Shown here: positions 2,764 through 7,669 of the stretch, in pieces
How the letters are laid out: every line of letters begins with the position of its first letter
Numbering within the stretch: the first letter of the stretch is position 1
Origin: Blautia sp.
GTDB taxonomy: Bacteria; Bacillota; Clostridia; Lachnospirales; Lachnospiraceae
Length of the DNA: 7,669 bases
Reading direction: 5' to 3'
Assembly (NCBI GenBank): GCA_017515945.1
Contig: JAFWDX010000046.1
Location: forward strand, 1 to 7,669
Notes under the pieces: generated by a model
Database searches by the model: none
The model's input: the letters and a program-made list of their open reading frames with translations, nothing else
What the model was told of the DNA's origin: nothing
Translations under genes and position numbers: made by a program

Positions 2764-2785
2764 TGAGTCAGGGGTGAGTCAGGGG
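2764..2785. repeat. 11-bp tandem duplication at the left end of the element
   Basis: TGAGTCAGGGG occurs at 2764-2774 and again directly at 2775-2785. The second copy begins the full outer palindrome, so the first is a partial duplicate of the element terminus. Confidence 0.9.
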
Positions 2786-2803
2786 GACAGGTTCCTTGAC
2801 TCA
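2775..2803. repeat. 29-bp terminal palindrome, copy 2
   Basis: TGAGTCA (2775-2781) and TGACTCA (2797-2803) flank a 15-base core. The GGGGGACAGG half faces the acyl-CoA ligase gene, the same orientation towards the flanking gene as in the other outermost copies. Confidence 0.9.
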
Positions 2804-2879
2804 TTTTTCAAGGACGGACGCCGGGCCAGGCAGGGCTATGAGGCGGGAAGCGCCGGATGTGTCCCCCGGTGTGACCACG

Positions 2880-2910
2880 AAAAAAATGCCCGAGCCCTTT
2901 CCGCTGGCTC
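2880..2910 (-). terminator. Hairpin plus T7 on the minus strand, left arm of the central element
   Basis: Read leftward, GAGCC (2910-2906) pairs with GGCTC (2896-2892) around a 9-base loop, and after five bases a run of seven T follows (2886-2880). It is the counterpart of the plus-strand T8 hairpin at 2966-3000, making the element terminator-like from both sides. It would stop leftward transcripts that come through the element before they reach the acyl-CoA ligase promoter. Confidence 0.45.
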
Positions 2911-2965
2911 TCTAAGAACGCGGGCTATTCGGCCATAGACGCCAGCCTCTTAGCCCGCGTTCCAA

Positions 2966-3000
2966 GAGAGCCATGCGCCCTGGTCTCGTGCATTTTTTTT
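2966..3000 (+). terminator. Hairpin plus T8 on the plus strand, right arm of the central element
   Basis: GAGAGCC (2966-2972) pairs with GGTCTC (2982-2987) with one bulge, followed within six bases by eight T (2993-3000). The A7 at 2880-2886 can pair with this T-run in the long fold, as in bidirectional terminators. It would stop rightward readthrough before the iorA promoter at 3181. Confidence 0.45.
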
Positions 3001-3053
3001 GCCGATGGTCACACCGGGGGACACATCCGGTGCTTCCCGCCGTGAAGGGAAAT

Positions 3054-3167
3054 GAAGCCCGGCTGAGATTACCGGAACGTGAGTCAAGGAACCTGTCCCC
3101 GTGACTCATTCGAAGCCCGGTTAAGATAACCGGCGCATGAGTCAAGGAACCTGTCCCCCTGACTCAT
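3054..3167. repeat. Two tandem 56-bp units at the right end of the element
   Basis: Unit 1 (3054-3109) and unit 2 (3112-3167) are each 56 bases and start with GAAGCCCGG, end with CTCAT, and contain one full TGAGTCA-N15-TGACTCA palindrome (3080-3108 and 3138-3166). They differ at only a few positions, including CCCCG versus CCCCC in the core. Unit 2 also has a perfect small hairpin, CCGGTTA-AGA-TAACCGG (3117-3133), which is imperfect in unit 1. The left-edge copy of the element has a single such unit, so this is a local duplication. Confidence 0.9.
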
Positions 3168-7503: not shown

Positions 7504-7532
7504 TGAGTCAGGGGGACAGGTTCCTTGACTCA
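7504..7532. repeat. 29-bp terminal palindrome, copy 5
   Basis: TGAGTCA (7504-7510) and TGACTCA (7526-7532) flank a 15-base core identical to that of the central left copy. It starts two bases after the ACT gene stop codon TAA (7500-7502), with GGGGGACAGG on the gene side. Confidence 0.9.
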
Positions 7533-7632
7533 TTGGATATGATGCCGGATGTGTTTATTTGGATATCCGGACGCCGGGCAGTCTAAAGTTGTGAGGCGGG
7601 CGGCGCCGGATGTATCCCCCGGTGTGACCACG

Positions 7633-7664
7633 AAAAAAAACGCTCGAGCCCTTTCCGCTGGCTC
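7633..7664 (-). terminator. Minus-strand hairpin plus T8 in the right-edge repeat
   Basis: Read leftward, GAGCC (7664-7660) pairs with GGCTC (7650-7646) around nine bases, and a run of eight T follows (7640-7633). It would block antisense transcripts from the right entering the ior operon. It does not end the operon's own plus-strand transcript, which meets it as an A-run. Confidence 0.4.
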
Positions 7665-7669
7665 TCTAA

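Follow-up and report, generated by a model that had tools for sequence, protein, structure and literature searches.

A repeated giant hairpin, usually framed by REPs, keeps its arms complementary across four subfamilies in a Blautia genome

The DNA analyzed here (the window) is an entire contig of 7,669 nt (JAFWDX010000046.1, C285 of the genome labeled G000) from a Blautia sp. draft assembly (GCA_017515945.1) of 518 contigs and 2.6 Mb that is 79% complete. The neighboring genes are metabolic, and include indolepyruvate ferredoxin oxidoreductase alpha and beta, both above the NCBIfam cut-offs, as well as genes whose products come closest to a phenylacetate-CoA ligase and an acyl-CoA ligase, with scores below those cut-offs. 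Among the ORFs of the window, six of which were scanned as proteins (the first giving no match at all), none was recognized as encoding a transposase. Flanked by divergent ORFs is a 404-nt stretch (2764–3167) that forms the subject of this work, and which, together with two further partial copies at the contig ends, is laid out as follows:

1–128, + strand: second core copy, right half, cut by the contig end
147–175, – strand: REP to the right of the second copy
2764–2774, + strand: 11-bp REP fragment immediately 5' of the full REP (from the sequence)
2775–2803, + strand: left REP, TGAGTCA...TGACTCA, + polarity (359 genome copies at ≤3 mismatches)
2815–2819, + strand: CGGAC at the left end of the core, without a pairing partner, present in all four subfamilies
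2820–2826, + strand: outermost stem, 5' side, partner of 3057–3063 (from the fold)
2842–2877, + strand: left arm
2880–2886, + strand: A-tract, with the T-tract as its partner
2891–2897, + strand: asymmetric internal loop, conserved 5' side, CGAGCCC
2905–2927, + strand: central stem, 5' side
2928–2950, + strand: terminal loop region of the central hairpin
2951–2973, + strand: central stem, 3' side
2979–2988, + strand: internal loop, conserved 3' side, CCTGGTCTCG
2993–3000, + strand: T-tract (from the sequence)
3006–3041, + strand: right arm
3057–3063, + strand: outermost stem, 3' side, GCCCGGC, then TG (from the fold)
3080–3108, – strand: right REP, inverted relative to the left REP
3138–3166, – strand: second right REP, inverted relative to the left REP
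7504–7532, + strand: REP to the left of the third copy
7568–7669, + strand: third core copy, left half, cut by the contig end

The two arms are 36 nt long, 97% complementary and 128 nt apart, and the folding energy of the 404-nt stretch is –267.4 kcal/mol, compared to a mean of –149.9 for shuffled sequences (z –19.2, with none of 100 shuffles equal), such that the nested foldback put forward in the original prediction does exist; the complementary strand folds almost as strongly (z –16.1). Some of its boundaries, however, had to be redrawn. The 29-bp palindromes predicted for the two ends are present as 29-bp REPs on both sides, but the left one occupies 2775–2803, with 2764–2774 being a mere 11-bp piece, and while the palindrome at the right end (3138–3166) stands, a second one at 3080–3108 had been overlooked. 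Similarly, the 12-bp inner stem (2916–2927/2951–2962) does pair, but belongs to a larger 23-nt stem (2905–2927/2951–2973, 91% complementary), and as pairing extends outside the arms in the fold (2820–2826 with 3057–3063), the total stem is longer than had been described. The inner REPs of this copy are separated by 276 nt, and the right REPs are inverted in both copies of the window with a legible right side. The contig itself starts with the right half of one copy and finishes with the left half of another in the same orientation, and may thus either span the interval from one direct copy to the next or represent a circle left unclosed by the assembly.

The hairpin core is found at 22 sites in the window's genome, comprising 14 complete central hairpins, three interrupted ones (C168, C490 and C8) and five half copies (w1, w7503, C61, C186 and C296b). 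These sites fall into four subfamilies: subfamily 1, with 14 window-like sites, subfamily 2 with two (C341 and C277), subfamily 3 with one (C326), and subfamily 4 with five (C409, C20, C148, C333 and C96). As contigs break inside the hairpin, the right half at the start of the window may pair with a left half elsewhere, and the number of physical copies is perhaps slightly below 22. More diverged copies were brought in by a covariance model built from ten rows (R1), a second model was built from fifteen rows (R2), and the scan of the window's own genome with R2 gave the list of 14 complete and three interrupted hairpins. The elements are intergenic wherever they were examined. Taken together with the 359 REPs in the same genome, this bears out the proposal of a repeated, non-autonomous composite with REP-type ends.

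Several individual copies show features of their own. In subfamily 4, an extra left piece (ATTTAAGTG..., or like ATTTAAGTGTGCTTTAAGTGAGTTGG) is common to four of the five copies (L127, L128, L129 and L131), and the right side of C148 carries GGCCAACCTCA, which is partly complementary to this piece; the subfamily 4 element may extend further than the others. On contig C205 of G000 (11855–12561), two oppositely oriented copies, with about 150 bp between them, are found close to the contig end. The C168 hairpin (L037, about 110–219) is interrupted by a repeat of about 110 bp with the ends TATACTC...AGTATA, and C8 (L040, near its end) shows the final stretch of this same repeat at the identical point, followed by the contig end, so that either a TA target is favored by the repeat or the interrupted hairpin was itself copied.

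The 29-bp palindrome qualifies as a REP in being short, palindromic and present in high copy number. At ≤3 mismatches, it occurs 359 times in the window's genome, and among other genomes 34 times in G036, 24 in G003, 22 in G027, twice in G002, once in G010 and not at all in G018. Neither the GTAG nor the CGTC tag adjoins the palindrome in ten copies viewed by eye with their flanks, and the REPs are therefore not filed as GTAG or CGTC REPs; GGGGACAG within the REP fits the GGGGWSAS motif that has been reported for some TIRYT-type terminal inverted repeats (TIRs) (PMC3733652, to the extent used here). A left REP lies within 150 bp in 11 of the 16 copies with a readable left flank (missing in the other five), and each of these sets includes a + REP, even though in C296a a degenerate – REP is nearer to the hairpin than its + REP. 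On the right, a REP is present in 10 of 13 copies and missing in three, with the nearest being + in eight cases and – in two. All 21 REP-bearing sides (11 left and 10 right) include a REP with ≤2 mismatches, and the association between REP and hairpin has a p-value of about 1e-14 at the genome REP density, or ≤3.3e-5 if a local chance of 0.2 is assumed. The six copies with REPs on both sides are four +/+, one +/– (that of the window) and one mixed. At C333 (L130, around 2065–2070), the TGA stop of the upstream ORF is also the start of a REP-like TGAGTCA.

The 30 bp outside the left REP have a mean pairwise identity of 25% and a maximum of 40% (45 pairs among ten of the 11 left-REP copies), and as this outside sequence is unrelated, REP and hairpin look like one inserted unit. 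Furthermore, some copies share their left spacer: C148 and C96, for example, have the REP, the spacer and the hairpin in common while the sequence outside differs, which argues that REP and hairpin arrived together in at least some copies. The C326 copy offers a comparison with other species, at the sole junction compared in this way: it has on one side an ecfT-like gene, for which the CbiQ/ECF transmembrane component models are the closest in NCBIfam (below cut-off), and on the other a truA-like gene, the latter identified from its start. The ecfT-like gene is found in 63 of 64 genomes of the genus, that of the window included. The ecfT–truA gap measures 429 bp and holds two REPs in the window's genome, compared to 0–198 bp (median 27) and no REP in the 27 congener loci that were readable out of 29 fetched. 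As this is a cross-species comparison, with EcfT 71–76% identical, the insertion is placed at the level of the junction only, and from such sequences the unit could have been either gained in this lineage or lost repeatedly in the others, with a gain being the simpler reading. Neither a scar at a target site nor an excised intermediate was seen.

The framing could also have arisen in another way, with the hairpin independently mobile by means of another enzyme and REPs inserting beside it, as would be expected if RAYTs favor hairpin-adjacent or tolerant intergenic sites. There is evidence in this direction: the 150 bp to the left of C277, C409, C20, C382 and C456 contain no REP, several of the REPs on the right have degenerated or stand in tandem, the extra left piece seen in four of the five subfamily 4 copies is present with or without a preceding REP, and REP dimers inserted into long palindromes are already in print (PMC3733652, in the part drawn on here). 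This explanation is, however, less easily reconciled with the + REP included in all 11 of the left-REP copies, with the unit common to C148 and C96, and with the diverged copy in another genome (G036, below), which repeats the left arrangement. On balance, we regard separate mobility of the hairpin as doubtful, although it is an alternative to be taken seriously.

We examined the pairing in an alignment (A4) of 15 rows, namely the 14 complete copies and the G036 copy, in which the C277 row is shorter than its copy. The five half copies are present in a broader alignment (A1) and excluded from a second one (A3), and A4 leaves out both the half copies and the interrupted C168, C490 and C8, of which A1 and A3 take the right part only. 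A1 contains many partial rows, and RNAalifold derived no useful structure from it; all structure work therefore took the window copy's fold as its single reference, which biases the analysis toward the window's pairs. In A4, 19 of 43 central-stem pairs are changed on both sides (80 such cells), and 85.3% of the cells are paired, compared to 73.6% in shuffles. None of 500 shuffles matched the both-side changes, the paired fraction or the covariation score, and controls in which the structure was slid along A4 reached 11 pairs at most; the count of further pair types on A4 was no better than in shuffles (184 of 500). The arm sequences differ among the four subfamilies with their pairing retained, as had been predicted for the arms. 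Neither of the two outcomes named beforehand as counting against a conserved structured family, namely a lack of further copies and arms that freely lose their pairing, was found.

Counted pairwise within subfamilies, with copies reused, subfamily 1 has 131 changed cells: pairing survives a double change in 69, a single change yields a wobble in 15 and a mismatch in 43, and 4 are of other kinds. C205a is involved in 50 of these 69 double changes, and there are thus fewer events than cells. The corresponding 79 changed cells of subfamily 4 are made up of 21 paired double changes, 14 single wobbles, 34 single mismatches and 10 others, and the one pair available in subfamily 2 shows a single wobble in 47 cells.

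Set within these changing stems is an asymmetric internal loop that does not change. Its 5' side reads GAGYCC in all 15 rows of A4, and its 3' side TGGTCTC in 14 of them, with the fifteenth (C277) having TGGTCTC in its contig; the half copy C296b has TAGTCTC in its place. The loop is kept in all 14 complete copies, and persists with its two sides mutually noncomplementary even though the surrounding stems are near-perfect. An ordinary miniature element (MITE) of a DDE insertion sequence with identical terminal inverted repeats would also be small, rich in inverted repeats, multicopy and, where examined, intergenic. The arms here, however, vary among subfamilies, unlike TIRs that are bound by a transposase, and the conserved part is instead the internal loop, making such a MITE a very improbable explanation.

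The original prediction took a G-U wobble in the arms as a hint that the folding of an RNA or single strand is under selection. In the arms of nine full copies, there are 17 G-U cells on the + strand compared to 18 A-C cells, which are equivalent to G-U on the – strand, alongside 116 transversion-type mismatches, many of them within the conserved loops; the corresponding counts in A4 are 14 G-U and 22 A-C (p = 0.24). The majority of single-sided changes break the pair and a minority give a wobble, with the wobble share being 26% in subfamily 1 and 29% in subfamily 4, or by our reckoning approximately what would be expected of random, unselected change. A selected RNA would tolerate G-U above A-C, and since the counts are balanced there is no wobble preference, and the hint of RNA selection fails. 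One mutation event can yield paired changes in both arms of a hairpin through template switching (PMC8794818, as far as that source is used here). We infer that double changes lacking a wobble preference fit the copying of one arm from the other by template switching better than they fit selection on an RNA helix. A bias by replichore was considered and set aside, as 13 of 19 rows, read in the orientation of the element and with one contig entered both ways, show positive GC skew, which by our reckoning is not significant, and the threshold by which nine of ten strong-skew rows are positive was set afterwards.

These counts bear directly on a function in RNA, either as a bidirectional terminator or as a long transcribed hairpin with pairing under selection. 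The strong covariation is what such a function would produce, subfamily 1 has an A-tract before and a T-tract after the central hairpin, and the two ORFs beside the G036 copy converge on it with their stops. Against this, neither strand is favored in the G-U and A-C counts (17:18 and 14:22), wobbles make up only about a quarter of single-sided changes, subfamily 4 has only four consecutive T, and the window copy has divergent ORFs on its two sides. Moreover, matches of the element to Rfam families were weak and stayed below the gathering scores; a tRNA was recognized in L124, outside the element. We therefore consider an RNA function improbable.

All clear copies but one lie in the single draft genome of the window. 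Searching with the full 404 bp matched seven of 61 genomes, the six others, among the matches listed, in the REP parts only, and the core alone matched two of 64 genomes of the genus, namely the window's genome and G036, with one diverged copy. The latter is a shorter hairpin without the outer arms, 3' of a related REP-like palindrome (TGGCAGGGGACGGTTCTCTGTCA) of the same polarity as the left REPs. In G036 (L072, about 1459–1485), the REP-like palindrome also encodes the final residues of an ORF.

Searches with R2 found only the window's genome among 392 genomes in a sample of the order, with nine candidates scored per genome, such that weak copies could escape. Among 200 genomes of the family, with few candidates scored per genome, there was again the window's genome and one weak match in G906 (E 2.7e-5). 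This match (L311, 1501–1620) is a hairpin between uvrA-like and mreB-like genes in a different genus, with a similar loop (TATTCGTC...GACTCTTA) and without the conserved GAGYCC/TGGTCTC internal loop. The conserved-loop pattern matched 42 of 398 genomes of the phylum, 12 times in the window's genome and one to three times in each of the others; the matches elsewhere are chance-like, and a reversed-pattern control also matched scattered genomes. Of 131 loop-pattern matches that were folded, only the window genome's own copy was element-like, and the runner-up among those with a long stem (L227) is GC-rich and was not accepted as a relative. A 23-nt pattern match (two bases free) within a BamA-like gene of a Bacteroidales draft (L094) was likewise taken as chance. 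In viral contigs, one scan with the loop pattern gave chance-like hits among the matches listed and another gave no match, and there was no match to the element in the plasmids and phages searched.

Y1 transposases are present in 10 of the 15 genomes scanned, the window's genome included, but no RAYT gene was found in the latter (a 79% complete draft), whose sole Y1 sequence is a fragment at the end of a contig, which we read as IS200-like. RAYT-like genes occur in seven of 64 genomes of the genus, and the RAYT loci of five of these seven (all except G010 and G079) contain, by eye, GGGGAC-type palindromes that are related but not identical to the window REP. The palindrome at the G085 locus differs from it by six mismatches, and those at the G027 locus have TGAGTTA or TGAGTAA at the start and TGACTCA at the end. 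The G027 protein scores highest in NCBIfam against the REP-associated tyrosine transposase, at 59.7 bits (cut-off 80), compared to 19.5 for IS200. The gene in G027 is bracketed (L054, 240–360 and 1250–1390) by inverted pairs of TGAGT...GGGGACG...TGACTCA in a compact, REPtron-like arrangement. The search proposed beforehand, for a Y1 gene flanked by TGAGTCA...TGACTCA, turned up RAYT-like genes with related palindromes close by in congeners, and no RAYT in the window's genome.

IS200/IS605 elements have two hairpin ends on the same strand, which the two same-polarity REPs on one strand of the present element resemble. The closest comparison is with REPINs, in which inverted REPs enclose a hairpin-forming spacer with compensatory changes, the commonest spacings being 71 and 110 bp (PMC3116915, in the part consulted). 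The element shares with these the REPs on both sides, folding kept by compensatory changes, multiple copies and the lack of autonomy. It differs in having a hairpin of about 250–300 nt between the REPs with a conserved internal loop of its own, and in that the REPs are co-oriented, rather than inverted, in four of the six two-sided copies. Seen against a REPIN, the composite therefore has a covarying hairpin spacer, but neither a short spacer nor consistently inverted REPs.

REP dimers in long palindromes, and REPs fused to stem-loops as TIRs of TIRYT elements, have also been described (PMC3733652, in part), and here too REP-type repeats are joined to a longer palindrome, with GGGGACAG fitting the motif noted above. 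As far as that account is used here, those palindromes are targets or transposase-adjacent TIRs, whereas the present hairpin covaries across four subfamilies and has conserved unpaired bases. ERIC, NEMIS, RUP and RPE are small mobile palindromes of 105–155 bp (PMC2229807), and are similar in being small and repeated, in having inverted repeats and in encoding no transposase, although the portion of their descriptions drawn on here defines families by sequence, within that size range, and mentions no REP frame. The paired arm changes are shared with template-switch hairpins, which the part of PMC8794818 used here describes for RNA genes, and which we propose here for a repeated, mobile DNA hairpin. 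No description of a REP-framed covarying hairpin family was found in the open-licence PubMed Central literature searched, mostly at listing level. As the principle of REPs with a hairpin spacer is known from REPINs, the REP-framed giant hairpin with its conserved loop would, judging from its sequence, be a variant of REP/REPIN-type elements.

Taking these observations into account, we believe, with a little more confidence than doubt, that the window stretch, as one of 22 usually REP-framed hairpins, is a non-autonomous mobile element, which a RAYT-like Y1 transposase would cut at the REPs and move in the form of a folded single strand. The REPs would serve as the cleavage ends, at which the Y1 enzyme would cut single-stranded DNA and move the intervening strand as a folded hairpin, with the RAYT acting in trans and either encoded in sequence absent from the draft or since lost. 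During copying, the polymerase would switch template within the hairpin, such that the arms stay complementary, and the conserved internal loop could be a recognition or assembly site; we read its unpaired bases in this way because correction would otherwise erase them. Far more tentatively, and expecting this broader idea to fail sooner than to hold, we suggest that the family represents a class of single-strand element that combines REP ends with a second recognition site, in the form of the asymmetric GAGYCC/TGGTCTC loop in the stem of a giant hairpin, and in which this loop stays constant while the arms on both of its sides are rewritten by template switching, with entire arms replaced from one subfamily to another and pairing retained throughout.

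If the preferred reading, that of a REP-cut strand moved by a RAYT-like enzyme, is true, the cargo that REP transposases or their relatives are able to spread far exceeds the usual REPIN in size and in degree of structure. The family would also then be a natural experiment that sets pairing kept through the copying of a DNA hairpin, with no wobble bias, against pairing kept through selection on RNA, a difference to which covariation tests alone are blind. Strong covariation in a repeated intergenic hairpin would thus, by itself, be no evidence for RNA.
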